From contig NZ_NIZW01000020.1 in assembly GCF_002727185.1 (NCBI RefSeq), forward strand, positions 1-64,000: a DNA stretch of 64,000 nucleotides, written 5' to 3'. The notes under the pieces were generated by a model. It was not told the DNA's origin, made no database searches, and saw nothing but the letters and a program-made list of their open reading frames with translations. Shown in pieces: positions 328 to 30,709 of the stretch (positions are counted from its first letter, which is position 1; every line of letters starts with the position of its first letter). The stretch is from Rhodopirellula bahusiensis. Lineage in GTDB: Bacteria > Planctomycetota > Planctomycetia > Pirellulales > Pirellulaceae. A program made the position numbers and the translations under genes.

Positions 328-2706
328 TCACTGACCGCAATTCGTGCAACCAGCACCGGTTTGCATGACAGGAGCTGCAGGAGCAGCTTGCATGACAGGT
401 GCAGCTTCGTAGCTAACAGGAGCAGCCGAACCGCAAGACGAGCAACCAGCACCGGTTGCAACGCCAGCAGCTGACGAACCGTAAGCAGCCGAAGCACCGT
501 AGACAGGAACCTGAACGGTGGTTGGAACTTGCTTGCAGACCTGAACTTGAACGGCCTTCATTGTTTGCACAGGAACGCAAACGCTGTAGGTTTCTGGCAC
601 TTCTTCAGTGACAGTGTCATAGACAGTCACGTTGTAAGTACGAGTACGAGTTTCAGGAGTGTTCACGGTGTAAGCAACTTCGCGGGTGCGTTGTTGCGTT
701 TCCATGCGGGTCTTGTTGACCGTACGAGTACGTTCTTCGGTCGTCATGGTCGTTTGAGGAACCATGCGAGTGCGAGTTTCCATGCGACTCTTGGTCACAG
801 GAATCGAACGAGTACGAGTTTCCAAACGAGTTTTCGTCACTGGAATCGACTTGGTGCGAGTTTCAGTGCGATAGTTCGTCACGGTGTAGTCACGAGTACG
901 CTCTTCTTGACGGCACTTTTGAACAGTGATCGTGCGAGTGCGTTCTTCGGTCGACATCGTGGTGAATGGAACCGTACGAGTACGGGTTTCAGTACGACAC
1001 TTGGTGACAGGAACCGTACGAGTACGAGTTTCGGTCTTCATCGTCGTCACAGGAATTTCGCGGGTGCGAGTTTCCAAGCGAGTCTTTTGAACAGGCACTT
1101 CGCGAGTTTTCGTTTCGGTGCGGTACTTGGTGACGGTGTAGTCACGAGTACGTTGTTCTTGACGGCACTTTTGAACCTGAACGGTACGAGTACGCGTTTC
1201 GGTTTGGTACTTGGTCACGTTGACCATACGCTCACGAGTTTCGGTACGGCACTTGGTAACAGGAACCGAACGAGTTTGCGTTTGCGTGGTGTACGAAGTC
1301 GTCGTGTAGGTGTAAGGAACCTGTTGCGACTGACGTTGGTACGAGGTGGTTGGAACTTGTTCCGTCACCAAGTTAGGAACGTAAACCTGACGATACGAAA
1401 CAGTTTGTCCGCATGCCGATCCAGCCGCAGCAGCACCGCCACCGACAACTCCACCGCATCCGCCGCCACAAGCCGACGAACCACAGCTGCTGGTGCAAGC
1501 TGAGCAAGAGCCGCAGCTGCTTGCACATCCGCCACCACAAGCCGACGAACCACAACCTGAACCAGCTGCGTAAACGCCTGCGCCGCTACCGTAGGAAGCT
1601 GCACCGCCGGAAACGACGGCTTGGCACTGGTAGCTGCCCATGTCTTTCGTGACGGTACGCATGGTGGTCACTGGGACGCACTTGGTAACGGTACGGAAAG
1701 CAGTCTTGGTTTCTTGAACAGGAACGCGAACGGTGTAGGTTTGTTCGACGTTTTCTGTGTAAGGAACGTTGACCGTGTAGCTTTGAGCAACTTGCTCAGT
1801 CACAGGAACGCTGACCGTGTAAGGCTGCTCAACGGTTTCGGTGTAAGGAACGTTGACCGTGTAGGTCTGCGTTTTGGTTTCGGTGTAAGGAACTTGAACC
1901 GAGTAAGTTTGAGTCAAAGTTTCGGTGTAAGGAACGCAAACTTGGTAAGTCTGAGTTTGCGTGCTCGTGACAGGAACTTGGACCGTGTAGCTTTGCTCGA
2001 CGTCCTCGGTGTAAGGAACCGACACTTGGTAGGTTTCTTCGCGAGTTTGCTGAACAGGAACTTGAACCGTGTAGGTTTGCTCTTGTTGCTCAGTGTAAGG
2101 AACGTTGACGGTGTAGGTTTGCGTCTTGGTCTCTGTGTAAGGGACCTGAACCGTGTAGCTTTGCTCAAGCTGCTCGGTGTATGGAACGCAAACTTGGTAC
2201 GACTGTTCCACGTTTTCAGTGTAAGGAACCGACACTTGGTAGGACTGTTCGACTTCTGTCGTGACAGGAACCTGAACCGAGTAGGTTTCTTCTTCGGTGT
2301 ATGGAACTGCGACTTGAACGTCGTAGGTTTCCGTACGTGTTTGAGTTTGCGGCACGTTGACCGTGTACTCTTGTTCGCGGCTTTCAACGCGAGCAACTTG
2401 CTTGGTCACGCTACGCATGCGAGTTTGCGTTTGGCGTTGGTAAGTGGTGGTGGGCACCATTTGAGTCTCAGTGACGTACTGAGAACGCATTACCGTTTGC
2501 GTTTGATAGGAAACGGTTGGGCCACATGCACCCCCATAACTAGCGCCGGCAACGCCGCCGCCCATGACTGTGGCACCACCACCATCGGAGACACATCCGT
2601 CGCCGCTAGCGCATCCACCACAATCTCCGCATCCTGCGTAGACATTGACAGCGAACAACATCGCCGCTGTCAGTCCAAGAAACATCCGTAATACGTTCGA
2701 TCTCAT
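328..2706 (-). CDS. Secreted YTV-repeat, cysteine-rich structural protein
   Basis: A 792-residue exported protein, probably a cell-wall or surface structural component. The first ~24 residues form a signal peptide (MRSNVLRM then a hydrophobic stretch to VYA). A Cys/Gly cluster follows, then about sixteen 14-residue repeats of the type YTVxVPYTExxEQS (residues ~113-338). Next come a Cys/Ser/Gly linker, about thirteen 14-residue repeats of the type TETRTRTVPVTKCR (~484-672), and a tail with CSSC and CTNC. The YTV repeat family is known from planctomycetes and is associated with their walls. I chose the start at 2706 because GGAGG lies 7 nt upstream, the signal peptide begins there, and a good promoter overlaps the longer reading frame. 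The first array is acidic and the second strongly basic. No enzymatic motif is visible. Confidence 0.88.
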   Translation of the reverse strand: MRSNVLRMFLGLTAAMLFAVNVYAGCGDCGGCASGDGCVSDGGGATVMGGGVAGASYGGACGPTVSYQTQTVMRSQYVTETQMVPTTTYQRQTQTRMRSVTKQVARVESREQEYTVNVPQTQTRTETYDVQVAVPYTEEETYSVQVPVTTEVEQSYQVSVPYTENVEQSYQVCVPYTEQLEQSYTVQVPYTETKTQTYTVNVPYTEQQEQTYTVQVPVQQTREETYQVSVPYTEDVEQSYTVQVPVTSTQTQTYQVCVPYTETLTQTYSVQVPYTETKTQTYTVNVPYTETVEQPYTVSVPVTEQVAQSYTVNVPYTENVEQTYTVRVPVQETKTAFRTVTKCVPVTTMRTVTKDMGSYQCQAVVSGGAASYGSGAGVYAAGSGCGSSACGGGCASSCGSCSACTSSCGSSACGGGCGGVVGGGAAAAGSACGQTVSYRQVYVPNLVTEQVPTTSYQRQSQQVPYTYTTTSYTTQTQTRSVPVTKCRTETRERMVNVTKYQTETRTRTVQVQKCRQEQRTRDYTVTKYRTETKTREVPVQKTRLETRTREIPVTTMKTETRTRTVPVTKCRTETRTRTVPFTTMSTEERTRTITVQKCRQEERTRDYTVTNYRTETRTKSIPVTKTRLETRTRSIPVTKSRMETRTRMVPQTTMTTEERTRTVNKTRMETQQRTREVAYTVNTPETRTRTYNVTVYDTVTEEVPETYSVCVPVQTMKAVQVQVCKQVPTTVQVPVYGASAAYGSSAAGVATGAGCSSCGSAAPVSYEAAPVMQAAPAAPVMQTGAGCTNCGQ
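690..1255 (-). repeat. Basic 42-bp coding repeat array
   Basis: Roughly thirteen degenerate 42-bp units encode 14-residue repeats such as TETRTRTVPVTKCR and LETRTREIPVTTMK. Most units carry a net positive charge. The limits are approximate. Confidence 0.75.
1690..2370 (-). repeat. Acidic 42-bp coding repeat array
   Basis: About sixteen degenerate 42-bp units encode 14-residue repeats such as YTVNVPYTENVEQT and YQVCVPYTEQLEQS. They are mostly neutral to acidic with alternating hydrophobic residues, as in beta-strands. The limits are approximate. Confidence 0.75.
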
Positions 2707-3205
2707 CAAAAAACCTCCAAAACGCTCACAGCCAGTGAGGCAACAGAAGAAACACGGGTAAGCTTTAACGGCTGCGTACTCTGGGCGGACAACGCCCGTT
2801 CCCCAAAATGTAGGTACCAGGTAAGCAGTGTCAACAATGAGGCGAATCAATCAGCCCGATAAAGCTTAGTTTTTGTTCAGTCGTCCCAGGAAACCTATTC
2901 TCCCGGGATCGATGCAGTGAGAGTAAGCGTGAAACTGACATCAAACGCGCACCTCATCACGAAATTTCATAAAACTCTTTTGCAGCCGCCCGTTTTGGCT
3001 AAACATCGCTCAGACGCGAACAATTCGCATTCGCCCAAGACGATTGATTAGTGCGTAGAATGTCTGCGGGAAATGAATCCCACAGGAATTCTGCAAAAAT
3101 TTCCGGGATGTGGTTCCCAAACCGGGCGTGAAAGACGACGTTAAGGAAACACTGTTTGCACGTCCCGGCAAATGGTCAAGATTGAAACGGGGGGAGGTAA
3201 GATCC
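2707..3205. other. Intergenic region between divergent genes
   Basis: About 500 bp separate the YTV gene (minus) from the PAS-GAF-receiver gene (plus). It contains the minus-strand promoter listed separately and a weak plus-strand -10 candidate TAGAAT at 3056-3061. No gene or RNA is supported. Confidence 0.55.
2807..2834 (-). promoter_or_regulatory. Sigma-70-like promoter of the YTV-repeat gene
   Basis: On the minus strand TTGACA (2829-2834) is followed after 16 nt by TACATT (2807-2812). This predicts a transcript start near 2800 and a leader of about 95 nt before the GGAGG-ATG at 2706. The -35 box is a perfect consensus. Confidence 0.55.
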
Positions 3206-5050
3206 ATGCCAAAGATCATCTGTGTCGGCGCCCCAGATTCGCCTCCGGATCGATCCTCACTGCCAGACGCTCTGCTACAAGGCGATGGCTCGGCTGAGGG
3301 AACAAAATCACCCGACATTGATTGGGTGTTCTGCGAGTCCATTGTGGACGCATTTCCTCTGCTTGAAGAGGAAGACGTGGCCGGCGTCTGGATGAGCCGC
3401 AGCAGCCTCCCGCAGACATCTGAAATTCGTGGGATGATGCAAAGCGGACTGATGCTCCGCGATATGCCTGAAGGTGTCGCGTTGCTTGACGCGGATCTTC
3501 GCGTGATTTGGGCGAACCATCGCTTGCTTCAGTGGGCGGGACGTCCGGCTGGTACACCGCTGGGCATGACGTTCTACGAATTGCTGCACAATCCCGAGAT
3601 CATGGGGCCGGATTTCTGTCCGTTCCACACCGCTCTGGCAACCGGGGACGAAAGCAGCTCCACGCTACACAGCATGGACAACCAATATTTTCAGGTTCAT
3701 GCCGCACCAGTCCGATCGGCCGAATCGCCGCGAAACCTGATCGTTACCATCGGTGAGATCACCGACGAGATCCTTCAACAGCAGAAGTTGGCGGCAATCC
3801 ACCAAGCCGGTCGCGAATTGGCCGATTTGCGTCCCAACGAGATCTTCATGATGGAGGTCGATGACCGAATCGATCTTCTGAAGGACAACATTCAGCACTA
3901 CCTGAGTGACTTACTAAATTTCGAAGTCATCGAAATTCGAGTGCTCGAACAAACCACCGGCGACCTGATCCCGCTGCTCAGCGTTGGCATCGACGAAGAA
4001 GCCTCTGACCGCCGACTTTCCGCACATCCCCGTGAGAACGGCATCACCGGGTACGTTGCCGCAAGTGGCGTCAGCTACGTTTGTCATGATGTACAGAACG
4101 ACCCTCTGTTCATTCCCGGCGTTGCAGACGCCCGTAGCTCGCTAACGGTTCCGCTGGTCCTTCATGATCAGGTGCTCGGGACGATCAACGTCGAAAGCCC
4201 CGACGTCGCAGCGTTCAGCGACAGTGATCTGCAATTCTTGGAGATCTTCGCTCGCGACATTGCCTTTGCTCTGAACACGCTGGAACTACTCGTCGCACAA
4301 AAAGCGAACACCGCTCAGCAAAGCTGTGACGCGATTCACAGTGCCGTCGCTCTGCCCGTCGATGCGATTCTCAACGACGCCGTGCACGTGATGGAAGGCT
4401 ACATCGGGCACAGCCCCGAGGTGATGGATCGCCTTCGCCGGATCCTGCAAAACTCTCGCGACATCAAACGGACGATCCAGCAAATCGGCCAAAAGATGAC
4501 TCCTTTGGAGGCCGTGCCGGCGGATGAGAAAATGGATCAAAACGCGATTCTCCGCGCCCGACGCATCTTGGTCGTCGACGATGACGAACAAGTTCGCGAA
4601 GACGCCCACCAGCTGCTCGAGAAATACGGCTGCGTCGTTGAGACCGCTCACGAAGGCGACGAAGCGGTTTTGATGGTCCGCCGAAGTGCGGGTGCCGACA
4701 GCTACGACGCGATCATTAGCGACATCAAGCTGCCCGATTACAGCGGGTACCAATTGATGTTGCGTCTCGAAAAAGTCATGACGCACGTGCCGATGATTTT
4801 GATGACGGGATTCGGATACGACCCAGGTCACTCGATCGTGAAAGCCAAGCAAAATGGCCTGCATCCAAAAGCGGTGCTCTTCAAACCATTCCGCTTGGAC
4901 CAACTGATCGATGTTCTGAAAACGGTGATCGAGGCGAACCCCAACGTGCAAAATCCTCCGGACGCATCGTCGGATGACAATCCTCCCAGCGACGAGGATC
5001 CCGATGCTGCACGGACCGCATCCGGCGGCACGAAGAACTCCATTTGCTGA
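3206..5050 (+). CDS. PAS-GAF-receiver signalling protein
   Basis: A 614-residue soluble signal-transduction protein. After an N-terminal part that resembles a degenerate receiver, residues ~85-195 look like a PAS domain. Residues ~225-360 look like a GAF domain, ending in FARDIAFALNTLELL. Residues ~375-435 form a helical stretch like a worn histidine-kinase dimerisation domain. Residues ~455-580 are a clear receiver: acidic pocket VDDDE, phospho-acceptor D506 in ISDIKLPDYSG, switch region LMTGFG and conserved lysine in LFKPF. No ATP-binding kinase domain is present. The start was chosen for the GGGGGGAGG site 8 nt upstream of ATG. No kinase is adjacent. The last 30 residues are acidic and low-complexity. 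The partner and output are unknown. Confidence 0.85.
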   Translation: MPKIICVGAPDSPPDRSSLPDALLQGDGSAEGTKSPDIDWVFCESIVDAFPLLEEEDVAGVWMSRSSLPQTSEIRGMMQSGLMLRDMPEGVALLDADLRVIWANHRLLQWAGRPAGTPLGMTFYELLHNPEIMGPDFCPFHTALATGDESSSTLHSMDNQYFQVHAAPVRSAESPRNLIVTIGEITDEILQQQKLAAIHQAGRELADLRPNEIFMMEVDDRIDLLKDNIQHYLSDLLNFEVIEIRVLEQTTGDLIPLLSVGIDEEASDRRLSAHPRENGITGYVAASGVSYVCHDVQNDPLFIPGVADARSSLTVPLVLHDQVLGTINVESPDVAAFSDSDLQFLEIFARDIAFALNTLELLVAQKANTAQQSCDAIHSAVALPVDAILNDAVHVMEGYIGHSPEVMDRLRRILQNSRDIKRTIQQIGQKMTPLEAVPADEKMDQNAILRARRILVVDDDEQVREDAHQLLEKYGCVVETAHEGDEAVLMVRRSAGADSYDAIISDIKLPDYSGYQLMLRLEKVMTHVPMILMTGFGYDPGHSIVKAKQNGLHPKAVLFKPFRLDQLIDVLKTVIEANPNVQNPPDASSDDNPPSDEDPDAARTASGGTKNSIC

Positions 5051-9725: not shown

Positions 9726-9974
9726 CGCCGGCTTGGAGAATTTTCATCAAGTTTTCCGTTCCGGTCGTCCACAACGATCCCTGGGACCGGCCGATCGGCA
9801 CAACCGGAACATCCCTCACGACGGGGCGCCGATTGAGCCGGTTCGAGCGGTTTGCACCGACTTGCCGGTCAAGCCGGTCGCCCAGATCGTCCGAAATGAT
9901 CCTGTGAACACGTCAGGACCGATCTAGAGACGTGTACCGAACATCCAGGTCTTCGAAGGCGATCGAACGTGACC

Positions 9975-12722
9975 ATGCGAAAAACACTGTCCATTTGGCT
10001 ACTAACCGGAACCGTGCTGTTGCCAGCCGCGATGGGGTGCAACCGCACGCACTATCGCAAACAGGCCGACAATGAAGCCTACGCGTTGATGGACGAGAAA
10101 GCCTCGCACGTATCACGCCCGGTCAACGCGCCGTTGCGGATCGAGCTGGACCGTCGCAGTCGAATGTTCAACCCATTCGACCTCGACTTCCAACCAATGC
10201 CGTTGGATGACCCAGCCTCGAATCGATACATGCAGTGTGTCGATGGCCGCCGTGGCTACCCAATGTGGGAAGCCAATGGACTGACCAACGCTGCCGAAAG
10301 CCCGGATTGGTGGCAGTTCTTGCCGCTCAATGATGACGGCATCCTCGAACTCAACTCAGAGAACGCCGTCAAAATTGCGTTGCTGCATTCCCCCGACTAC
10401 CAGCGACAAATGGAACAGTTGTACCTGTCCGCGTTGGATGTCTCGAGCCAACGGTTCCAGTTCGACACCCAATACTTCGCCGGTGCCGGAGCTTCGTTCA
10501 GCCAGAGCGATCAACGCTTCGGAGCCACTCGCGATTCTGACTCGGTCACCAGTGTTGGCGGCGACGTCGCGCTGAGCCGTCAATTCGCGACCGGAGCCAA
10601 CTTGCTGGTCAACTTTGCCAATGAAGTTGTCTGGAACCTGAACGGTCCCGACACGCGAACGACTTCCACTGTGCTCGACTTCACGTTGTTGCAACCGTTG
10701 CTGCGAGGTGCCGGTCGCGATCGCATCATGGAATTGCTGACGCTATCCGAGCGTCGACTGCTCGCCAACGTTCGCAACTTTGAACGATTCCGTCGAGGTT
10801 TCTACTTGGACATCGTCACCGGCCGAAACAACGACAGCAGTGTCAGTCGTTCCGGCGGCACGTTCTCGGCCAACACCGGTGCCTTCACCGGGTTCGACTC
10901 TGGGTTCGCCAACCTTGGTGGTGGCGGAGGGACCGGCGTTCCTCAAGCTGGCGGCTTCATCGGTTTGCTCCAGGACCAACTGCAAATCCGCAACTTGGAG
11001 GAGAACATCGCTCGACTGGGCGAGAACCTGGTCATTCTCGACAACACATTGATTGAATTGTTGACCACCATTCCCGATGACCCCGAAGCCATCATTCGTC
11101 AGCGTCTGCAAATTGCACAAGCGAGATCGGCATTGCTTAGCTCGCAGAGCTCGTTGGTCTCGCGCCGCGTTGGCTATCAAAACTCCGTCGACTCGTTCCT
11201 TCGTGACCTTGGGTTGCCACCATACATCTGCGTCGAGATCAACGACCCGATGTTGGAACGTTTCGAACTGATTGACCGCACGCTCCGAAATCGCCGCGAA
11301 GAATTGATCGAAGTGCGATTGGCCGTCGGTGAAATCAACATTGGACTGCTGGAATCAAGCGAGAGCTCACTGAACCCAGAAACGGGGCTCCCGGAATCCA
11401 AACTCACTTGGGACGACAACACGATTCAATTGATCGAACAACTCCGATCCTCCGTCGAACCGCTGTCCAAGTTCACGGAAGACTTGATCAGCGAAGACTT
11501 GCCTCGCGTCGAGGCCGACCTTCAGAAGTTGTCCGAGCTGATTCCGGAACGCAAAAACCAAACCGATTCTTTGCTGCAACTGTACCGCGAAGAACAAGCG
11601 ACCGTGTGTTCGCTGTTGGGCATCGAAACAGTTGACGAATCCATCTTCGACTTGGACCCGGTGCTCGAACTTGGCGAAGAACTCGATTCGCAGTTCTCCG
11701 AAATCGCGAGTCGACTCGACGCTTACAAAGTCGCTGTCAAGCAACTCAACGATCGGATCGATGTCTTCTTGGAAACCGGTCCGCAATCCGAAAACCGAGT
11801 CGAAATTGCTGCCCAGGTTCGCGGCGAAGTGATTCTGGCCAGCCAAGACTTGTTGGCAAACTTGGGTGAAGACGTCCTAGCGTTGCAACTGATTCAAGCA
11901 CGTGCCCGTGTGGAATCACTGTTGTTGCCCGAAGTGGAAATCAACCCAGCCGAAGCACTGCAAATCGCTCGTGTGAACCGCCGTGACTGGGCCAACGCCC
12001 GAGCCGCGTTGGTGGACACCTATCGTCGGATCGAGTTCTTCGCCGACGACTTGGAAAGCGATTTGGACTTGGTCGTTTCGGGTGGGGTCAGCCGTGCTGC
12101 GGTGACGGATCTTCCCAACAACGACAACACCAGTCTTCGGATTGGACTTCGCTGGGACGCCCCGATCACTCGCCTGCAGGAACGCAACACCTACCGTCAA
12201 GCGTTGATCGAATACGAACAAGCCAAGCGGTCGTACTACAACTTCGAAGACAGCGTGTGGCAGGGCCTTCGCTCAAGCATTCGCCAGCTCCAAGCCAACC
12301 GGATTAACTTCGAACTGGGACGCCAATCAGTTCGCATCGCAGCAAACCAATTGGAACTCAACGAAGACATCCGGTCGTTCCGAGACGCTCGCGGATTGAA
12401 CAGCGGACCGACCGCGGCTCGCGATACGATCTCGGCACTGGGTGACTTGCTGGACTCGCAGAACTCGCTGCTGAACATCTTTGTGAACTTCGAAGTTGTT
12501 CGTCGCAGTCTCGATTTGGACCTCGGAACGATGGAGCTGACACCCGACGGACTCTGGATTGATCCAGGTCCCATCCAGCCGGAATACCTACTCGGATTGG
12601 TTGGAACATCCGAAGGCGGCTTGATCGATTGCGGTGTCACAACGTCCAACGCTCTGTGCCCGACGCCTGACTGTGGCATGCCACTGAAGGAACAACCCAA
12701 AGCACCGATCTTTGGCTTCTAA
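9975..12722 (+). CDS. Extra-long TolC-family outer-membrane efflux lipoprotein
   Basis: A 915-residue exported protein. The N-terminus is a lipoprotein signal with lipobox PAAMGC. The two TolC-type repeats are visible: the first from about residue 120 (NAVKIALLHSPDYQRQM), with strand segments and the family phrase LLQPLLRGAGRDR, and the second from about residue 655 (NPAEALQIARVNRRDWANAR) with LRIGLRWDAPITRLQERN. TolC proteins are usually near 450-500 residues. Here ~250-300 extra residues of Glu/Leu-rich helix (~390-640) separate the repeats, and a Gly-rich loop lies near 300-320. No inner-membrane pump or adaptor is adjacent. GTG two codons upstream is an alternative start. The likely role is export across the outer envelope; the substrate is unknown. 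Confidence 0.82.
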   Translation: MRKTLSIWLLTGTVLLPAAMGCNRTHYRKQADNEAYALMDEKASHVSRPVNAPLRIELDRRSRMFNPFDLDFQPMPLDDPASNRYMQCVDGRRGYPMWEANGLTNAAESPDWWQFLPLNDDGILELNSENAVKIALLHSPDYQRQMEQLYLSALDVSSQRFQFDTQYFAGAGASFSQSDQRFGATRDSDSVTSVGGDVALSRQFATGANLLVNFANEVVWNLNGPDTRTTSTVLDFTLLQPLLRGAGRDRIMELLTLSERRLLANVRNFERFRRGFYLDIVTGRNNDSSVSRSGGTFSANTGAFTGFDSGFANLGGGGGTGVPQAGGFIGLLQDQLQIRNLEENIARLGENLVILDNTLIELLTTIPDDPEAIIRQRLQIAQARSALLSSQSSLVSRRVGYQNSVDSFLRDLGLPPYICVEINDPMLERFELIDRTLRNRREELIEVRLAVGEINIGLLESSESSLNPETGLPESKLTWDDNTIQLIEQLRSSVEPLSKFTEDLISEDLPRVEADLQKLSELIPERKNQTDSLLQLYREEQATVCSLLGIETVDESIFDLDPVLELGEELDSQFSEIASRLDAYKVAVKQLNDRIDVFLETGPQSENRVEIAAQVRGEVILASQDLLANLGEDVLALQLIQARARVESLLLPEVEINPAEALQIARVNRRDWANARAALVDTYRRIEFFADDLESDLDLVVSGGVSRAAVTDLPNNDNTSLRIGLRWDAPITRLQERNTYRQALIEYEQAKRSYYNFEDSVWQGLRSSIRQLQANRINFELGRQSVRIAANQLELNEDIRSFRDARGLNSGPTAARDTISALGDLLDSQNSLLNIFVNFEVVRRSLDLDLGTMELTPDGLWIDPGPIQPEYLLGLVGTSEGGLIDCGVTTSNALCPTPDCGMPLKEQPKAPIFGF

Positions 12723-20746: not shown

Positions 20747-23700
20747 TCAGTCTGCGACTGCGGATCGCTCCATCAAATTCGCGGGAACTTCCTTGGGCCA
20801 ATCTCCCGTCAGCTTCATGTCGCGGATGCGAACGTCTCGTTTGACCTCCCTCAGCAAACCGGGACGGGGTGGATCAGCGACTGGCAGACTGATCAATGGA
20901 GTGTCGTTCAACTCCACTCGCACGGTGTCACCATTACGCGTCAACTTCACCGTGTTCCACGCTTGATCATTGGGCACGTTTTCTGGTGCAACCGGATCGG
21001 CTGGTGGATCCAGTTTGTCCACCGCAATGAATTCGGTTGATGCCAAATCATTGGTGATGCGGATCCAGTTTGGCAGGGTGCCCTCTTTGGTGAACTTCAA
21101 CGCCATACGACCGACGGTCGGTTGTACTTCGGTATCATCCCACTCCCACCAAAAGGAATACTCCATCGACTCACCATCTAGCAATGGACGCAGATATGCG
21201 ATGTGGCTCGACGGATCGTATACATTGTCCGCTTTTGCCGACATGTATTTCAATTCGTCATCCTTCACCGACCACTTGCCTTGGTCTTTTTCACTCGCAA
21301 CCTTGCGGGCCTCCTCAATCTTCTCGGCGTCTTGATCCTCCCCGATGGGCAACAAAGGATCTGGCAAACCACGTCCGAAGGTCAGGATACCCCAGCCTCT
21401 CATGGTTGGATCAACTGGATTGATCTGATCTGGAATCACAGGGTTCCCCGTCAAGCGAATGTTGCTGAACTTGATCGTTCGACTCATCTCTTGCGTGAAC
21501 GACAACCATGGGTAGGACTGCGTTTTCAAATCGTTGACATAGGGTTCGTCATTGCACAGTCCGATGACTTCGTTTTCTGTGACGTTCAACTCCTCTTCGT
21601 TCACCTTTCCATTTTCAATGGACGGTACGGACACCTTCACGGTGCTGCCCGCCATGGCGGTGATGCGAGCTTTCTTCTCCCATCCGTCAGGTTGGTACAG
21701 CACGCCACCGTAAGCGATGTTGCTTGCCCCCGGATTGCCATCCCAGATGTCGGCTGAAAAACCAAACTCGCCTGAAACGGGAAAACGAAGCATCAGAAGC
21801 GATTGATTATCACCACTCGTAGCACTGACCCAGCCTTCGTCATCCATCGCAAAGAGTGGATACAAGGTTTCCGTGTCAGGAGTCGCCCGTGCCGGCAACC
21901 TGACTGGAACAAAATGCGCCAACGGCGAACCCTCCGTCGCACCGGCTGCCCGCCCCACTCCGGCAAACGCCATGGTTCTTCCCAAAGCAGACGTCACAGT
22001 GTTTCGCTGACTTCGAGTTGCATACGGCAAAAGCTTTGCGAGCAATGGCTTTGTCTGGTCGTCCACCACTCCGGCATCAATGCAACGAGCGATCAAATAG
22101 GTTGCCAACATTGGATACTCGAGCGTTGTATCTTGCTTGGTAGGCTTGTTGGCGATCAAGTCAGCTTTGATGGCATCCAACGTTTTGAGAAGCGAATCAG
22201 ACTTTGGGTTGCCTCCGTTCTTCAACTGACCGGCCAAGCGGACCAATGCCGCGGCAATATCGGCGTCATCGCCTGCTCGCTCGCTTCGTCCGATCAATGC
22301 CTCGGCAACGTCGGCTGACTTGTTTGTCTTGGCTGCCAGATCGGCGAGCATTAGAAGAGTATCGACCGTGGGAATTTGGGAAGTCGAAGTGGCCAGTGAC
22401 TTGAAGTCTTCTAAACGCGGAGTTTGCCGACGAACGGATTCCGGCGGTGTGTCATACCGAATGAACCCGGTCCAATGCATGATCGGGCTGTCGGCGTCGT
22501 CTCCCATTGCAATCTGCATGAGCAGGTCAAATTGCGTCGACTCAGGCAACTCGTTGATTGCAGCCGCCAGCTTGGCCGGTGTCATCGAATCGCGATTCGA
22601 ATCATTAGCCAGTTTCATTGCGATTAACTTGCGGATGAAGCCCGGGGTTTGCTCCACCATCTCGTCATCAATCAATTCACCCAGCAACCGCTCCAGTTCA
22701 TTCTGGATATATTCATCGCGGCGGTCGCCGTCATAGTTCGCGTAGCGTGCTTCACGGGTCACGATCTCAGCCTCGAGCACGTTTTGAAAATGTTCGAGGT
22801 CGCTACTCTTCGCGGCACTCTTCAACATCAAACGGCGAAGCTTGCTGGCGATACTTCGATGGCGATTCGAGGTGTAGCTATCGGAGTCAATCAAGCCAGC
22901 GGTGCGTTGCAGCAACTCACCCGCACGCTCCGCAACCTGAGCCGCACTCGCTAGATCGCTCGGGTCTTGCAGCAGTGGCCAAATGCATCCGAGAACAAGA
23001 TTGATGGTTTCGCTTTTTCGATAGGACTCTTGTTGCATCTGGGATGTGATCGAGTTCAGCGTCGAGGCGGATGACGTGATTTCGCTGACCTCAGGCAAGA
23101 CCGAATCCAGCGATTCAGCGAACAAGTCCAGAGCCGACACGAGCTTCTCCTCGTCCTGGGACGCCAATGCAAAATCAACCAATAGACTCGCACTCGTCGC
23201 CTTATCAGTTGATTTCACGATCCGCTCTTGCAGTAGCTCATCCAGCTGCGCCGAACGATCACACCGTACCGCTGTGATCATTAGCGACTTCGCAGCCGAT
23301 TCCTTTCCGGAGTCGTCGGCCAACTCACCTCGGTCATATCCGGTGGTTGACACGATCTCCGTCGCATAAGGGAACACCGTTGCCGGGCGTTCCGGCGGCA
23401 GCACAATTGCCCGCAACGCCTCGAAAATCAAAGGGATCGATGTCGCTGGGTCGCTCTTCGGCTGGCCGTCGTCCCCGGACACCACATCGCTGGACACCGT
23501 AGCGTCGGAAGGAACGCCGTCAGTCTCCGAATCATTCGTGTTTGAGTCCTCAGGTTCTGGATCGCGTTTGCCTAGTTTTTCTCCAATCGCATCCGAGTAA
23601 AGATCGATGATTTCGTTGACTTGCCGAGTGAGCTCTCCCATCCCGCCATCATCGCGATTGCGAACATTCGTACTCTGCCGACTGATCGTGAACGCATCGC

Positions 23701-26700
23701 CCGTCGTCCCCATCTGCCGCAGCGGAGGACCGTTGCCAAGCGCCAACGTCAGAGCACGCGTGGAGATTTCGATGTCACCATCCATCGCTGCGGTTCGTGC
23801 AATCCCCAATGCGGTCTCGCACTTATCTTTTGAAAGCGGTGCGCCCGGCTCGATGTCATCCTCAATCCGGTCCAGATAAATCGCGAATGATTGCGAATGA
23901 TCGCCGGTCAATTTTGAAAGTGCCAACTCGAGCCGAGGATCCCCGGTCGTTCGGGCGACGCTGGTCATATAGTCAATCAAGTTCTTGCCGACTTCGGTGT
24001 CCGCGTCCGGATCGGATTCGAAAACCGATTTAACAACCGGATACAGATCCAACAATGGTTTGTACTTGTCGGCGGAAGGAGCACCCGCCGCTGCGGTCAC
24101 TTCCTCGACGGGCGGAAGGGCCTCGAACAAGCGAGCCGCAGTGGGTTCAATATTCTCCGACTTGGTATGCGCGGCAATCAAAAGTTCCGTCGCGGGCAAT
24201 GACCAATCTTCGGTGTGCTCAGATGAGAGATCGCCGATCACGGACGCCAGTTCATCGACGGCGTCCTGCCCTTCCTCGATCGCAAGCGAGGAACGAATTG
24301 CCATCGTCAGCCCTGGTTCGACATCGCCTGCCAACAGCATCTCAACGGGCAAGTCCATTAGATCGACGCTGATTGCCCGCTTCTTGGAGTCTTTTGACTC
24401 AGCGAGTTCTTCAGTGAGCCACTGAATGTATTGCGTGGATGCTTTGGGCGTCACAGCTTCGGCTGCTGCCTCGGCTGCTTTGACGAAGGACTCACTCGTT
24501 GTCCCGGATCCATAGCGTTTGGCTCGTTCGAATCGGCCTGGATCCGAAAGGGCACGGCGATAGATCACAATCGCGTCAATCGGGCACCCCATGCTAACCA
24601 ACTTGTCAGCGATTGATTTGTACTGCCGCAAATCTTGATAGTCCCCGTAGCCGGGGTTGTATTGATTTTGCTCGGAATTATCGATCGAAGCGTAGCCCTC
24701 AAGCGCGAACTGACGAGCCAATCCGCTTTGACCATTGGCCGCGTAAACGTCGAGCAACCGAGCAGAAACTGAGAACTGGAAATCGTTCGGTGTAATGTTG
24801 CTATCATCGCTGGCGTATTCGTACATCTCGACCAACATCGCGGGTCGATCGGGAATGCCACCAATTTCTTCGACCACTTGACCCGCCTGCCATACCAAGC
24901 CACCGCTAATCGTTCGAGCCCCGGGTTCTTCGCCCTCTTCGCTTTTGGGGATCGCACTCCGAAGTCTTTCAGCTGCTTTGTCTTTTTGCTCCGACTTTTT
25001 CAAGTCCATCAGGGCGAGCAAGAACTCAGCGGTCGGTTTCGAGCTTTCATTCTTTTTGGCTTTCTCTGCCGCCTCGCCAAACTTTTTGGCAACCGCCTCG
25101 TCTGTAGTGACCAAGCCAACAACATCTTCCAACGGACCAATTGCTGTTCCGCCACTTGAACGGCTGCGAACCTGCCAAAGTGTTGACGTCGGCGAAAACG
25201 CATCATCACTGCAAATCGCCTCCACCACGGTCTCTTGAATCCCCGGGATATTCTTTCGTTCGGAATCGGGTACGTTGCGAAGAATGGAATAGAAGTTTTG
25301 GCGACCATACGGACTCTTCAGTGCATGACCAATGAACTTGCGTTTTGCCTCACTGAAATCTTGTCGATCGCCCATCGACACAAATTCCCCCAATCGATAG
25401 GAGGACAAGGCGGCAGGGTCAAACTCCAACAACCTTTCGAACATCGCGTCTTCGCATTTGGCCGCTTGCACAGCTCGACGCATTTCGTAGTAGGTGTTGT
25501 TCATCAAGCTGGGATCTTTCTCGAAAGCGTCCAAATACATCTCGGCCGCTTCTTTGTGCTTCTTGCTCTTGGCCAAGGCGGCCGCCCGGGAGAGCAACTG
25601 CCTCGCATCAACGGGACGGTCGGTGGGGGCATCTTCCCAAAGAGCTGCTGCGTCGTCGGAACGACCGGCTGCCGTGTAGAGTTCGGCCAACTCGGATCGA
25701 ACACGCATCGAGGAGGGCGATGTCTTCAGCCGCCGCTCGGCTCGTTCGATCAACGGTTCCATCCGTCCTGCTGATGTCAATATTTCGACGGCTTGTCGGC
25801 GATAGTAATCTTGATTGCTTTGGTTTTGGCGTCGTCCGCTGCCCAGCTTCCTCAGCAACGCGTAGGCGACTTCGGCAGCCGATTCCTTGTCATCGCTGGC
25901 CATGAACGATCTCGCGATCTGCAACTCGACACTGTCATCACGACTCTTGCCGCCTCGCATGCGACGCAGAACAGCGGCGGCCTTGTCATTCATTCCCAAG
26001 CGACGCAGTTGGTCCACCAACGCCAGTTGCGTATTCGTGTCCATCCGCATTCCGAACAATCGCTGCGCAGCCTGCTTCGCGCGATCGATGTCACCAAGTT
26101 CAGCGGCCAAGTTCATTGCCGCCATCTCTTTGCGAACCAACATGCGACTGTCCAGCGGATCGAAAGAATCCAACGCCTCCAGTGCAACGCGGGGTTGATT
26201 CAACTCGCTGGCCAACCGAGCTCTCTCGATCTGCAAATCGACGTCATCGGGATACTCTTCGCAAAGCTCGATCAATTCACGATAGCAGTCCTCAGGACGG
26301 CCATCCCACCAATGAGCAAATGCGGCCAGCACACCACGCGACTTCAATTCGTAAATTGGAGCGTCCGGGAGAGGCTTCTGAAGATGCTCAATCATTTCCA
26401 ACGGCACCCGCAACGATTGAGTACGGGTGTTCGTGTTTTTCGACGAATCCTCCGGCACCAAGCTCGACAACTCAGACACGATGGACTGGTCGATCAGGGA
26501 CGTGGACAACGGAGCCTTGATCTGGATTGACCGGTAACTTCCCGATGGTGATTGATAGTAAGTTCGCAGCATGCCTTCAGAGAGCGGACTTTTGCGACTG
26601 CGGGAAAGAACGTCTCGACCGATGTTGGCCGCTAAGACGGCGTCGAGCAACTCAAGCCGGTGTTTATCAACAAACGCTTTGCTCCGCTTGGATGACCGTG

Positions 26701-29700
26701 TCATACCACCGAGCGAACCATTGATGGACCGGCTTGGTTGCGTGGCCTTGCCACCGGTTTCATTTCGGATTGCAGGAATCAGGCGGCTTACCAACTCGCT
26801 GGCACGATCCTCTGATCCCATCCGCAGATGGAACATAAGAGTGGACAAAAGCTCGTCGTACGATGCGTCTTCATCAGGATCAGGAATCGCAAACTCGGCT
26901 GCTCGTTCTGGAAGTCCGGCACGCTTGAATTCGTTGATCAAGATACTCCGCAGCATCAACTGGCTTGACGTCGTTTGCAAAGACGTTGTTTGCGGCTTGC
27001 CTTTATTCTTGTTAAACAGGTCGACCAAAATCTCTAAACGTTCTGTCGAAAGGGGTTCAGGCTGATCCTCTTTTTCACCATCTTCTTCAGGCTCTTTGGT
27101 TTCGTCCTCATCCGGAACCGCGATGCGAGACGCCAACAGCGACAGGATGGCTGTCTGGCCATATTCAGGATCAAGCTCAGCCAATCGCCAGCTCAGCATC
27201 TCCTGCCGCCGTTTCGCTTCGGCGGCCTCCGCATCGTCTTCGTTGGTGTTGGTATTCGTCGCCAACACCGACTGGAACGATTGCAATGAGGTGTACTCCC
27301 AAAGCACCATCGCATCGTCGACCTCTTCGATTTCGGCAATGCTGAACTGCTCTTTCATCATCTCCTCGATCTTGGATTCAGCTTCTCCTGCCGGAGCCTC
27401 CTTGGCTTCACGCACCATCAACAGGGAAGCCGCCAAGATGCGAGCATGCCCAAAGACGTTGGGTTGAACTAGATTCAGGGAAGTCGCACCACTGCTGTAT
27501 CCAAACAAATCATTCCCATATCGGCCAATCCGATAGTTGCGAGCCATCGTGTAGCTGCTTTGCCCCCAATACCTCGGATTGGTTAAGTAATCCGCCGGGT
27601 AATTGGTGTTGCGTGAACTGGCCTTGACCGTCTTCTGAGTTAGCGGCTTCGCGTCCATCGGCAAATCCATCGCGCGGATCTGCTCGCACAGTCGGCCCGC
27701 TTCTTCATAGCGTTCTTTCTGGTCGTCACCGCTATCGTCATAAAGCAACAGCTGGGCCAGCTCGAGCTTCACGTCCCACAAGCCTGGGTCACGATCGAGT
27801 GCTTCGCGACAAATCGCGATTGCCGCCTTGGTGTCTCCACGCATCGCAGCGGATCGGATCATCGAACCCAAGCGAACCGGGTCGGATACCAAAGAGATTC
27901 GTTCGCCGAGTGCTGTCGCGACATCGATCATGCCCGCGTCGAGTTTTAGTTGCACCAGCTTGAAACGATTCTCGGGCGTATCAGCAAGCGAGACGATTCG
28001 CTCTTGATACTCGGCCGCCGTTGTCACCTCGTCAGCCAAATCACTCAGATTGACCATCGTTTCGAGCAATGCAACGTCGCGAGGTTGTTGAGCAATCAAT
28101 TGGTCAATCGCTTGCCGAGCGGCCCCATAATCTTCAATCGCTTCGTAAGCGGCGGACGTCAAAAGCAAAGTGCCTCGAGTATCACCGTCTTCACGGCCGA
28201 GTGATTCGATTCTTGAAATCAACTCTTCAACATCACCTTGGCGATCGTACAGAGGCGCCAACTGCTTGATCAGACTGATCCGGTCATCGGTTTGAGACTC
28301 GTACTGGATCGCTTGCCAGTAAAGTTCGATCGCTTCGTCGGTGCGATAACGCTCAGCCAATTCCGACGCCATCATCCTTCGTGGCCCGTTGTCACGCGGA
28401 GCCACGTTCATTGCCCGGCGAAGCGCCGTGAAGGCTTCATCATCACGGTTGGCACTGAGTGCGGTCCGTGCGTAAAACAGATAGGACTCAGGGCTGGCTG
28501 GGTTGGCATCAATCAACGATTCGCATGTCGCAAGCGCTTCATCGATTTGCCCAAGACGAGTCTGCAGCCCCGCGACACGCTGCAAATAGTTGGTGCGAAA
28601 TCTGGTATCGAATTCGGATAGTTTCTCAAACAATGTCACCGCGTCAGACAGACGAGATTGTCGCTCGGCAATGTCAGCGGCAACCACCAACACGTCCACG
28701 TTCTCGGGCTCTAGATCCTGAGCCTCCCGAATCGCCTCCGCCGCATCGGTCAATTGTCCAGCCGCTTGATGCATCAGGGCCAGTTGTCGCAATCGATCGA
28801 CCGTAGGTGGTTGGGTCTCCAGCGTCGCGATCTGATCGCCCAGCGTTCCGGCCTGACGATACGTTTCGATCTGGTCTTTCAAGACCTGTTCTTGTTCGTC
28901 CGGAGTTTCCGCGATTTCGCGGGCCACCTCCAAACGGGTGAACGCTTCTTCATGCTGCTTCGCGTCTCGGAGTGCTTTTGCAAAACGCAGTTCCTGTGCG
29001 AACGTCAAATCCATTTCTGCCGCATCCCGCCAGGCCGCGAGGGCTCGTTCTCCCAGTTCAAATGTGTTGAACACTTCCGCCAAGCGAACCAGCGAATCGC
29101 GATTCCGGCGATCTCCGGAGGCGATCGATTCCCATGTCTTGATCGCTTCTTCTTTGCGATCGAGCTTGTGCAGGTATTCACCCAAGTACTCGCGATATTG
29201 CGGAGACTCAGGATCAACCTCGATAGCCTGCTCATACAAATTGATCGCGTCTTCTTCTCGATCGATGCCTCGAAATCGGTCGGCAATCTGTGAAAGCGTG
29301 ACTGCATCGTCGCTTCGGGCATCAGCCAATTGCTGCCAAACACCGGCCGCGGCATCGCGACGCGCCTGCAATTCCATTTTCTGGTCTTCTAGCAACAATT
29401 GTCCCCAACGCAGCAGATAGTCAGGGTTTTCGGGGTCGTTCTTTGCCAAAGCCTCATACTGTGCGGCCGCCGATTGATTGTCCCCCAACGCAACCAACAC
29501 GTCGATCAATGCCAATCGCACGTCGGCGTCACCTGGTGCTTTCGTGGTCGCGTCCAGGAGTGTTTTCTTAGCTTCGTCGAGGCGTCCGGCAGAAACCAGA
29601 ATGCGTCCCAATCGAGTCTGCAACGCCAAGTTGTCAGCGGAATCGGCCAACTGTTTTTGGTAGTAGTTTGCCAATGCGTCGTAATCGCCAGATTTGAGAA

Positions 29701-30541
29701 AGCCATCTTCGATCCGATTGCGAACGTCCGTGTGAAGCCAACTACCTGGTCGCAGGCGGGCAAGAATTTTCTCCAGATCTTTTGTCGCTTCTTCCGGTTC
29801 GCCCAACCGCCGTCGCAGTTCGGCGGTTTCCACTGCAAACGCAATCTTGTCGTCTTCATCGCGGCTGTTCTTCGACAGTGCTACAAAGCGAGCGAGTGCT
29901 TCTTCGAGATTCCCTTCTTCGGCGAGTGCTCGAGCAATTTGGCCCCCGACGCGGGCATCCCGCGGGAACATTGCTTCGAGTTGTTTCCAAACTGCGAATG
30001 CTTTTTCGTTTTGTCCTGCACGCCCATAGATCCGACCTAACTCAGTGAAAATCGGCACCGCCTCATTGCGTGCGGGACCGCGGTCGATTGCGCGTTGAAT
30101 TGCCTCGGCCGCCCGTTCGTTTTCGCCAACCGCGAGCAAAGATTTACCGAGATAGAAACTGCAGGCCGCTTCGTCGGGCAAACGTTCTTCTGCCTTCGAG
30201 AATGCTTCCACGGCGAGCGCTGACTTACCGCGTTGAGCTTGGATCAGCCCTAAGACCATCGCCTTTTCACCGGCTGACGGCGCATCATCATCGACGTCCA
30301 ACGATTCGATCAGCTGATCAAGCGAACCGTTTTGAACGTGATACCCATAGACTCGATCCAGGGCGGTACCAGGACGAGGCCGACGTAGTAAGACTTGAAA
30401 GAACCGGTCCGCAGTCACGCGTTCTCTATCGGTCTCACCGACCTCTTGAGCAGAGGATGGCAAACACAGTAATCCGCCTCCAAGTAAGAAGACTAACAGA
30501 GGACCAAAGCAGAAGATCCGAACTGAACGGCAGTGAATCAC
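20747..30541 (-). CDS. Giant secreted TPR protein with DUF1583-like C-terminus
   Basis: About 3,264 residues. The signal peptide is VIHCRSVRIFCFGPLLVFLLGG and onward to SSAQ. Residues ~70-960 are stacked tetratricopeptide-type helical repeats (for example AAEAIQRAIDRGPARNEAV). Further helical repeats occur near ~1400-1700, with long Ser/Glu-rich connecting regions. The last ~380 residues resemble the planctomycete DUF1583 family, with two beta-sandwich-like segments (FGFSADIWDG and AWNTVKLTRNGDTVRVELND) akin to laminin-G/glucanase-like folds. The chosen start is GTG at 30541, where the signal peptide begins after GAGG; an upstream GTG at 30634 adds 31 poorly conserved-looking residues. It diverges from the Bat-like operon with a shared 168-bp spacer. 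Likely a scaffold in the periplasm or at the surface; function unknown. Confidence 0.88.
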   Translation of the reverse strand: MIHCRSVRIFCFGPLLVFLLGGGLLCLPSSAQEVGETDRERVTADRFFQVLLRRPRPGTALDRVYGYHVQNGSLDQLIESLDVDDDAPSAGEKAMVLGLIQAQRGKSALAVEAFSKAEERLPDEAACSFYLGKSLLAVGENERAAEAIQRAIDRGPARNEAVPIFTELGRIYGRAGQNEKAFAVWKQLEAMFPRDARVGGQIARALAEEGNLEEALARFVALSKNSRDEDDKIAFAVETAELRRRLGEPEEATKDLEKILARLRPGSWLHTDVRNRIEDGFLKSGDYDALANYYQKQLADSADNLALQTRLGRILVSAGRLDEAKKTLLDATTKAPGDADVRLALIDVLVALGDNQSAAAQYEALAKNDPENPDYLLRWGQLLLEDQKMELQARRDAAAGVWQQLADARSDDAVTLSQIADRFRGIDREEDAINLYEQAIEVDPESPQYREYLGEYLHKLDRKEEAIKTWESIASGDRRNRDSLVRLAEVFNTFELGERALAAWRDAAEMDLTFAQELRFAKALRDAKQHEEAFTRLEVAREIAETPDEQEQVLKDQIETYRQAGTLGDQIATLETQPPTVDRLRQLALMHQAAGQLTDAAEAIREAQDLEPENVDVLVVAADIAERQSRLSDAVTLFEKLSEFDTRFRTNYLQRVAGLQTRLGQIDEALATCESLIDANPASPESYLFYARTALSANRDDEAFTALRRAMNVAPRDNGPRRMMASELAERYRTDEAIELYWQAIQYESQTDDRISLIKQLAPLYDRQGDVEELISRIESLGREDGDTRGTLLLTSAAYEAIEDYGAARQAIDQLIAQQPRDVALLETMVNLSDLADEVTTAAEYQERIVSLADTPENRFKLVQLKLDAGMIDVATALGERISLVSDPVRLGSMIRSAAMRGDTKAAIAICREALDRDPGLWDVKLELAQLLLYDDSGDDQKERYEEAGRLCEQIRAMDLPMDAKPLTQKTVKASSRNTNYPADYLTNPRYWGQSSYTMARNYRIGRYGNDLFGYSSGATSLNLVQPNVFGHARILAASLLMVREAKEAPAGEAESKIEEMMKEQFSIAEIEEVDDAMVLWEYTSLQSFQSVLATNTNTNEDDAEAAEAKRRQEMLSWRLAELDPEYGQTAILSLLASRIAVPDEDETKEPEEDGEKEDQPEPLSTERLEILVDLFNKNKGKPQTTSLQTTSSQLMLRSILINEFKRAGLPERAAEFAIPDPDEDASYDELLSTLMFHLRMGSEDRASELVSRLIPAIRNETGGKATQPSRSINGSLGGMTRSSKRSKAFVDKHRLELLDAVLAANIGRDVLSRSRKSPLSEGMLRTYYQSPSGSYRSIQIKAPLSTSLIDQSIVSELSSLVPEDSSKNTNTRTQSLRVPLEMIEHLQKPLPDAPIYELKSRGVLAAFAHWWDGRPEDCYRELIELCEEYPDDVDLQIERARLASELNQPRVALEALDSFDPLDSRMLVRKEMAAMNLAAELGDIDRAKQAAQRLFGMRMDTNTQLALVDQLRRLGMNDKAAAVLRRMRGGKSRDDSVELQIARSFMASDDKESAAEVAYALLRKLGSGRRQNQSNQDYYRRQAVEILTSAGRMEPLIERAERRLKTSPSSMRVRSELAELYTAAGRSDDAAALWEDAPTDRPVDARQLLSRAAALAKSKKHKEAAEMYLDAFEKDPSLMNNTYYEMRRAVQAAKCEDAMFERLLEFDPAALSSYRLGEFVSMGDRQDFSEAKRKFIGHALKSPYGRQNFYSILRNVPDSERKNIPGIQETVVEAICSDDAFSPTSTLWQVRSRSSGGTAIGPLEDVVGLVTTDEAVAKKFGEAAEKAKKNESSKPTAEFLLALMDLKKSEQKDKAAERLRSAIPKSEEGEEPGARTISGGLVWQAGQVVEEIGGIPDRPAMLVEMYEYASDDSNITPNDFQFSVSARLLDVYAANGQSGLARQFALEGYASIDNSEQNQYNPGYGDYQDLRQYKSIADKLVSMGCPIDAIVIYRRALSDPGRFERAKRYGSGTTSESFVKAAEAAAEAVTPKASTQYIQWLTEELAESKDSKKRAISVDLMDLPVEMLLAGDVEPGLTMAIRSSLAIEEGQDAVDELASVIGDLSSEHTEDWSLPATELLIAAHTKSENIEPTAARLFEALPPVEEVTAAAGAPSADKYKPLLDLYPVVKSVFESDPDADTEVGKNLIDYMTSVARTTGDPRLELALSKLTGDHSQSFAIYLDRIEDDIEPGAPLSKDKCETALGIARTAAMDGDIEISTRALTLALGNGPPLRQMGTTGDAFTISRQSTNVRNRDDGGMGELTRQVNEIIDLYSDAIGEKLGKRDPEPEDSNTNDSETDGVPSDATVSSDVVSGDDGQPKSDPATSIPLIFEALRAIVLPPERPATVFPYATEIVSTTGYDRGELADDSGKESAAKSLMITAVRCDRSAQLDELLQERIVKSTDKATSASLLVDFALASQDEEKLVSALDLFAESLDSVLPEVSEITSSASTLNSITSQMQQESYRKSETINLVLGCIWPLLQDPSDLASAAQVAERAGELLQRTAGLIDSDSYTSNRHRSIASKLRRLMLKSAAKSSDLEHFQNVLEAEIVTREARYANYDGDRRDEYIQNELERLLGELIDDEMVEQTPGFIRKLIAMKLANDSNRDSMTPAKLAAAINELPESTQFDLLMQIAMGDDADSPIMHWTGFIRYDTPPESVRRQTPRLEDFKSLATSTSQIPTVDTLLMLADLAAKTNKSADVAEALIGRSERAGDDADIAAALVRLAGQLKNGGNPKSDSLLKTLDAIKADLIANKPTKQDTTLEYPMLATYLIARCIDAGVVDDQTKPLLAKLLPYATRSQRNTVTSALGRTMAFAGVGRAAGATEGSPLAHFVPVRLPARATPDTETLYPLFAMDDEGWVSATSGDNQSLLMLRFPVSGEFGFSADIWDGNPGASNIAYGGVLYQPDGWEKKARITAMAGSTVKVSVPSIENGKVNEEELNVTENEVIGLCNDEPYVNDLKTQSYPWLSFTQEMSRTIKFSNIRLTGNPVIPDQINPVDPTMRGWGILTFGRGLPDPLLPIGEDQDAEKIEEARKVASEKDQGKWSVKDDELKYMSAKADNVYDPSSHIAYLRPLLDGESMEYSFWWEWDDTEVQPTVGRMALKFTKEGTLPNWIRITNDLASTEFIAVDKLDPPADPVAPENVPNDQAWNTVKLTRNGDTVRVELNDTPLISLPVADPPRPGLLREVKRDVRIRDMKLTGDWPKEVPANLMERSAVAD

Positions 30542-30709
30542 GGCAACCTCGACGTCAAAGCGGAAGTCGAACCAAGCAAGCAGAAGAATCCTCACTGTAG
30601 AGATCGGCGCCGCGCGATGCAATTCTCGACACACCCCACCTCACATTTTCTGGTATTCTGCTTCAGACCTTCCAAACGATTGCTGCGATGGCGAACCTTT
30701 AGGAACAAC

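Follow-up and report, generated by a model that had tools for sequence, protein, structure and literature searches.

How two long repeat arrays of opposite charge, encoded by a single gene, are arranged with respect to each other in the finished protein is the question raised by a locus of Rhodopirellula bahusiensis (assembly GCF_002727185.1, contig NZ_NIZW01000020.1). The gene lies in the window, by which is meant the whole stretch of 64,000 nucleotides analysed here (positions 1 to 64,000 of the contig), and its product is a YTV protein of 792 residues whose parts are set out in Table 1. The YTV family itself is already known; what is new is the relation of the two arrays to each other as mirror-matched arms. 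The protein is quite probably a secreted wall strut, the arms of which pair as one giant antiparallel beta-hairpin with the cysteine-rich centre as its turn.

Table 1. Parts of the YTV gene and of its product, in positions of the window
Feature	Position (nt)	Strand	Residues	Remarks
CDS of YTV protein	328..2706, stop included	-	792 aa	ATG at 2706; Pfam YTV PF07639
Probable Sec signal peptide	2635..2706	-	1-24	By eye; cleavage ...NVYA|GC
Cys/Gly-rich head	2509..2634	-	25-66	5 Cys
N arm	1639..2508	-	67-356 (290 aa)	No Gly; also strand E41-331 (mature numbering) of a low-confidence model
Acidic YTV array	1699..2328	-	127-336	Fifteen 14-mers, net -21; sequence and Pfam
Turn (Cys/Gly/Ala-rich linker)	1393..1638	-	357-438	11 Cys
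C arm	511..1392	-	439-732 (294 aa)	No Gly; also strand E422-712 (mature numbering) of a low-confidence model
Basic array	691..1278	-	477-672	Fourteen 14-mers, net +26; sequence
Cys-containing tail	331..510	-	733-792	4 Cys

The preliminary description of this DNA had distinguished an acidic to neutral N-terminal array from a strongly basic C-terminal one, had assigned both the same 14-residue period and had placed cysteine-rich linkers between and around them, and on each of these points the computed figures agree with it. The N array consists of consecutive 14-mers in a single phase, with unit charges from -4 to +1 (mean -1.4) and a composition (K3 R2 D2 E24) that gives a pI of 4.05, and the C array runs from 0 to +3 per unit (mean +1.86), with K13 R35 D2 E20 and a pI of 11.14. 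When the 29 unit charges were dealt at random, 1 deal in 100000 matched the difference between the arrays, a count that is no true probability because the units are related copies. The "basic" C array retains 20 Glu, on average over one in each unit. Both arrays are the inner portions of longer arms, glycine is absent from all 584 arm residues, and the N and C halves of the protein open with alike ...VSY...VPTT(T/S)YQRQ... segments. Three of the 29 cysteines lie in the N arm and six in the C arm; the others belong to the head, turn and tail.

Against the Pfam YTV model the whole protein scores 120.9 bits (E 2.2e-35, 8 stretches; cut-off 21 bits) and the N arm alone 154.9 bits (E 5e-46, 8 stretches), while the C arm alone reaches 14.3 bits (E 0.044), below the cut-off and best at its outer end; the places listed in the gene all fall at nt 1705-2325. 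In the 16-residue paralogue on contig C2 of the same genome, YTV places are found on either side of the turn. The window protein resembles the family in the match of its N arm, its richness in cysteine, its tandem repeats and its probable signal peptide. It differs from the Pfam description, a repeat stretch of 43 positions, in being bipartite and built of 14- rather than 16-residue units, in a C arm that stays under the cut-off, and in arms that are opposite in charge and mirror-matched. An NCBIfam search with the protein returned nothing up to E = 1. Matches to PF07639 occurred in all 198 genomes sampled from the class and in none of 14 control genomes, and the R. bahusiensis genome has 25 listed matches on six contigs.

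In the passages of the literature consulted, mostly outside subscription papers, YTV proteins are listed as major components of the Gemmata wall after boiling in 10% SDS (PMC5287468), are also reported for walls prepared from Rhodopirellula baltica and from Gemmataceae, and are stated to be restricted to Planctomycetales (both PMC8567305); the essential set of P. limnophila includes a YTV protein, for which rigidity based on cysteine has been suggested (PMC10632474). They are named there as major planctomycete wall proteins, yet these same passages do not describe their structure, and neither a hairpin nor mirror-matched arms is mentioned in them for the family. By analogy with these proteins the 792-residue protein would be expected in the wall.

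Two sets of proteins underlie the comparisons. The first comprises 118 proteins, of which 48 without a VWVP-type landmark stood outside one count and 56 outside the segmentation into arms. For the second, turn regions were hand-picked among the matches listed, from 100 genomes of the order, several of which had already supplied other genes to the first set; eight of the 100 loci lacked a suitable ORF and 22 of the remaining 92 ORFs lacked the turn landmarks, leaving 70, from which one incomplete protein and one containing an X were dropped. Of the resulting 68, 23 with mixed units entered the test of unit order; L190, mixed in both arms (189/105), stood outside it because its C arm offered too few spacings, and an X is present in L275.

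The opposition of charge is not random within the lineage of the window protein, and it is far from general in the family. All 27 orthologues and paralogues that were aligned have an N array of net negative and a C array of net positive charge, and a negative N half with a positive C half was found in 33 of the 42 14-residue proteins retrieved with the 792-residue protein. Proteins sampled through Pfam gave this arrangement in none of five further proteins of 14-residue lag and in 4 of 65 16-residue proteins; of the latter 65, 55 are basic in both halves and 53 have a C half that is more basic than the N half. Opposite halves being frequent in one group and rare in the other, an array-wide opposition of sign is a trait of the 14-residue lineage. 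Such a limitation would have weakened the electrostatic idea, but a finer match appeared at the level of positions, and this local complementarity is broader than the lineage.

The structural reading begins with an AlphaFold2 model of the mature 792-residue protein (27 sequences), in which confidence is very low (pLDDT 45.8, pTM 0.20) and two main strands, each 291 residues long, flank a cysteine-rich centre. A drawing of this kind predicts arms of equal length. Arm length was measured in 35 of the 43 first-set proteins of 14-residue lag, namely those with the landmark V[WY]VPN (several of them near-identical, such as L050/L051 and L048/L049), and in 33 of these 35 14-mer proteins with VYVPN or VWVPN the C arm is about 5 residues longer than the N arm (difference within 8 of -5). 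The arms of this family range from 122 to 318 residues, and the slope over the 33 conforming proteins is 1.001. The two exceptions to the automatic rule, L109 and L075, are suspected to be wrongly segmented; in L075 the C arm is split into two runs that together span 226 residues, and its N run is 226. Measured between alignment anchors, the difference in length between the N and C arrays is 13 or 14 residues in every one of the 27 proteins, over N/C lengths from 110/97 to 236/222.

Length matching extends to change in length. Among 17 disjoint pairs of nearest relatives, eight show a clear difference in N-arm length, and in all eight both arms shift together, with N/C changes of -29/-28, -14/-14, -14/-14, -27/-24, -28/-31, -28/-29, -70/-70 and -113/-111; the single disagreeing pair among the 17 includes L075. 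In the second set the correlation of arm lengths is 0.848, with 51 of 68 proteins departing from the median difference by no more than 16 residues; the other 17, all outside the family of the 792-residue protein, lie further off. In L153, a protein of the first set, the arms are clearly unequal (C 253 against N 184 residues).

It is conceivable that the protein is a largely disordered, low-complexity polyampholyte and that its equal arms are a relic of an ancestral duplication. The low pLDDT of the full-length model and the similar opening segments of the two halves both fit such an origin, which nevertheless appears very improbable: the arms co-vary in length in every one of the clearly differing disjoint pairs, the arrays are now strongly unlike in sequence and charge, the arms are free of Gly throughout, and a model of the hairpin tip, discussed below, has a pLDDT of 89. 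Equal lengths could also arise if the arms did not pair at all and each spanned the same gap, for instance the thickness of the wall, with N arms lying on N arms and C arms on C arms. Little credence can be given to this second alternative, which accounts for arm length and predicts neither that 14- and 16-residue units follow each other in mirrored order nor that charges anticorrelate in a fixed register, both of which are described next.

Paired antiparallel arms should agree outward from the turn, position by position, and the repeat motifs do so. Across 23 family proteins the C motif (E.R.R) is more distant from the turn than the N motif (Y.V.V), by 3 residues in 194 of 210 cases and by 2 in 13 more, all of them in L029; all other offsets between -4 and 10 together account for six. 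Irregularities are mirrored as well: a slipped unit of 12 residues occurs in both arms of L027 (N 187-199, C 190-202), L012 (N 145-157, C 148-160) and L037 (N 117-129, C 120-132), and in L065 and L070 motifs are skipped at matching distances in the N and C arms.

A wider test is offered by proteins in which units of 14 and of 16 residues occur together. In nine such proteins of the first set the order of units, read outward, is largely alike in both arms, with N positions 5 larger, and 91 of 101 unit positions coincide (start positions counted; single shuffle values 0.0001 to 0.21). Agreement is complete over the common range in L114, L116, L146, L153 and L157, and register is lost after 6 units in L117 and after 10 in L122. 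The offset was picked on these nine proteins and then kept fixed for the second set, where the order was compared without a filter on arm length. There, the 23 proteins have 169 coinciding positions out of 183, as against a mean of 95.1 (sd 7.6) and a maximum of 118 in 2000 shuffles of the N order, and 105 when the N arm is read in the direction of the C arm. The coinciding fraction is 0.93 with a protein's own C arm and 0.38 with that of another protein. The proteins being related, the sample was also restricted by identity, both mutually and to the first nine: below 80% identity, 18 proteins give 137 of 147 (shuffled 75.4 +/- 7.2, highest 104 of 1000); below 70%, six proteins give 44 of 50 (shuffled 24.4, sd 4.1, highest 37 of 1000; same direction 27); and below 65%, the three that remain give 24 of 28 (shuffled 12.1, sd 3.0, highest 21; same direction 18).

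Charge obeys the same register. For 21 representatives of the 33 family members (L109 and L075, with their suspect segmentation, being left out), the net charges of opposed 14-residue N and C units are correlated with r = -0.815 at offset 5, a value taken from the AlphaFold2 drawing. Shifting the opposed units by one to five units reduces this to between -0.28 and +0.12, and none of 2000 shuffles within proteins (sd 0.06) is as strong. All 33 members together give r = -0.797, and the middle units of 20 proteins give -0.586, as against -0.17 to +0.33 at other shifts. Toward the outer arm ends of the 792-residue protein the signs flip, with N +3 opposite C -2. In a scan of 121 offsets that makes no use of the model, anticorrelation peaks at 4-7 in all 21 members of the 14-mer family; in other YTV proteins the best offset is 2-9 in 37 of 51 and outside 2-9 in 14, these 51 second-set proteins having been pre-filtered for an arm difference no more than 20 from the usual, a filter that favours the hairpin. 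Median correlations are -0.77 and -0.56 for a protein's own arms and -0.15 and 0.00 for the C arms of other proteins. Parallel arms were considered and rejected: controls read in the same direction behave much as shuffled ones for order (105 against 95; 27 against 24) and give charge correlations near zero (medians 0.09 and -0.13).

The residues brought opposite each other at this register suggest how it might be held, although the pair counts follow the phase of the repeats and serve as illustrations, not as independent tests. At offset 5 Tyr stands opposite Lys 6.5 times and opposite Arg 4.3 times as often as composition would lead one to expect, with 4.9 and 3.4 times in the reverse direction, and charged pairs are like in 10 cases and opposite in 97. 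On the diagonal at offset 7 the counts are 12 like to 257 opposite, at offset 4 they are 33 to 213 and at offset 9 48 to 192; offset 3 hardly favours opposite charges (109 to 131), and offsets 0, -3 and 11 favour like ones. Cross-strand disulfides inside the hairpin were tried as a further means of attachment and rejected, the coincidence of Cys with Cys in the second set being 0.0007 at offset 5 against up to 0.0199 at offset 1. From the sequences it seems unlikely that arm cysteines face each other, a point of little weight since the coincidence is set by repeat phase.

A more confident picture was obtained from the 16-residue paralogue on contig C2, the hairpin tip of which AlphaFold2 models from 62 sequences (of 73 references) with a mean pLDDT of 89.3 and a pTM of 0.32 as two 91-residue strands and a small four-strand cap, the turn of this paralogue differing from that of the 792-residue protein. 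In both models the strands are continuous, and the arms of the 792-residue protein, looked at for the turns of a beta-solenoid, are without Gly. The predictions list strands and not strand partners; pairing of the strand ends, if assumed, gives offset 5 in both models, as in the charge scan. The arrays are drawn as paired strands rather than as parts of one continuous domain without contacts, in agreement with the contact between arrays that the preliminary description had envisaged. A beta ribbon is thus the physical form that the models suggest for the arms.

Whether the two arms of a pair belong to the same molecule is a separate question. With the register unchanged, the N arm of one molecule could lie antiparallel against the C arm of a second molecule, to form symmetric dimers or a chain; the tests of length, order and charge covariation would come out identical, and such an arrangement would lead straight to a lattice and is the nearest to the wording of the preliminary description. 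Strand swapping of this sort would, however, require the turns of two molecules to be exactly aligned, and both the confidently modelled cap and the spacing of the turn landmarks, fixed at 53-54 residues in the 70 second-set proteins that have both (partly by selection, as the proteins were fetched through similarity to such turns), favour a closed hairpin of one chain. Exchange between molecules is accordingly regarded as unlikely, and we infer pairing within one chain. The earlier idea of complementary packing is supported in that the arrays appear to pair, as judged by their lengths, unit order, charge register and AlphaFold2 models, and is altered in that the packing is most simply placed within a single chain and not primarily between molecules.

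The computations show that the arms match in length, that their units are mirrored in order, that their charges are complementary in one register and that cysteines lie at the ends; the assembly of a single-chain hairpin may be pictured as follows. After removal of the signal peptide, the acidic N arm of 290 residues would pair antiparallel with the basic C arm of 294, a residue at distance d before the turn coming to lie opposite the residue at about d+5 after it. Cross-strand pairs of Tyr with Arg or Lys, together with diagonal pairs of Glu with Arg or Lys, would hold the register. Head and tail would then meet at one end and the turn would form the other, producing a rod with cysteine clusters at both ends that could be linked to other rods through disulfides. 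A fully extended strand measures about 0.33 nm per residue, which would make the hairpin of the 792-residue protein about 96 nm long.

The distribution of cysteine bears on the last step. Over 21 proteins there are 9.8 Cys per 100 residues in the head (signal peptide included), 1.2 in the N arm, 17.8 in the turn, 2.9 in the C arm and 13.7 in the tail. Cysteine is far denser at the ends of the hairpin than in the arms. The disulfide locking and wall lattice of the preliminary description stay hypothetical, and a net of rods joined by disulfides would fit this anatomy. In one study, the two top-scoring YTV wall proteins of Tuwongella immobilis were obtained solely in the SDS-soluble fraction (PMC8567305), which disfavours a net that resists SDS.

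Searches with the tip model returned short pieces of beta ribbon. By Foldseek and VIA-align no chain among 983 aligned reached Z >= 5, which is no proof of a new fold; the best VIA-align match has Z 4.2 over 63 residues, and TM-scores of at most 0.17 with sequence identities of at most 16% were found among the 50 matches listed. A search for solved relatives by sequence gave one chance match (E 0.52). Among the top-ranked structures are hairpin stems of solved pore complexes and of a phage tail complex, which are likewise long two-stranded antiparallel ribbons; the aligned parts are short, and a simple shape is shared with no kinship claimed. The G5-E repeats of SasG and Aap form surface rods of single-layer beta sheet and are alike in outline, a long thin beta rod made from tandem repeats with no globular core. 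Unlike their string of small domains, the 792-residue protein is predicted to have two continuous strands, and no G5 domain is found among its Pfam matches up to E = 1.

There is a real chance that the fold represents a new class. For the wider proposal, that the YTV proteins of the wall form a new class of structure, single giant hairpins whose arms reach several hundred residues and which are held in register and joined at their cysteine-rich ends into the planctomycete wall, the balance tips slightly in favour. Part of that proposal is the way in which register would be kept, through charge matched position by position, complementarity of Tyr and Arg, and compensating gains and losses of repeats in both arms. 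If the hairpin is right, it would supply a concrete and testable unit from which a largely proteinaceous bacterial wall could be built, a case in which two distant parts of one protein evolve in step with each other, one repeat at a time, and a natural code by which very long beta strands are paired and on which designed protein rods might be modelled.

Whether the two arrays share an ancestor was also approached by direct alignment, and this route was abandoned. In the 792-residue protein the N array scores 252 against the C array and 256 against the reversed C array, so that pairwise similarity is uninformative on their descent; none of 300 column-permuted controls matched the unpermuted score.

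The Pfam YTV model (PF07639) misses half of the window's YTV protein, whose basic C arm (511-1392) scored 14.3 bits in a profile search, below the curated cut-off of 21 bits. For the paralogue with 16-residue units on contig C2 of the same genome, matches to this model flank the turn on both sides.

The turn region itself, as found in the YTV protein L107 and in a second set of YTV proteins, is conserved: among 247 genomes from the order, 166 contain a match to it at E 1e-10. In the 70 members of the second set in which both landmarks could be located, the GHW-type and VWVP-type sequences lie 53-54 residues apart, a spacing that is partly a product of selection, as these proteins were fetched by similarity to such turns.

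In both arms of L065, a relative, YTV-type and RTR-type units alternate with a period of 28 residues, mirrored about the turn, with the consequence that unlike units are opposed and the charge of most units is close to zero. Many YTV proteins, among them L114, L192, L155, L157 and L268, mix 14- and 16-residue units in an irregular order, and this order reads like a barcode common to both arms. In L038, on a metagenome-derived contig, the repeats are spread over two overlapping ORFs; the YTV frame appears to be broken there, which may reflect sequencing error or decay.

Other genes in the window include a transglutaminase-like protein that may be a cross-linking enzyme.

Other genes in the window
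Feature	Position	Strand	Pfam
PAS-GAF-response-regulator protein, gene oriented divergently to that of the YTV protein	3110-5050	+	PAS, GAF, response regulator
917-aa ORF	9969-12722	+	no matches at 1e-3
3295-aa ORF, many TPR repeats	20747-30634	-	DUF1583_N/DUF1581 close to C-terminus
Transglutaminase-like protein	46414-48426	+	PF01841
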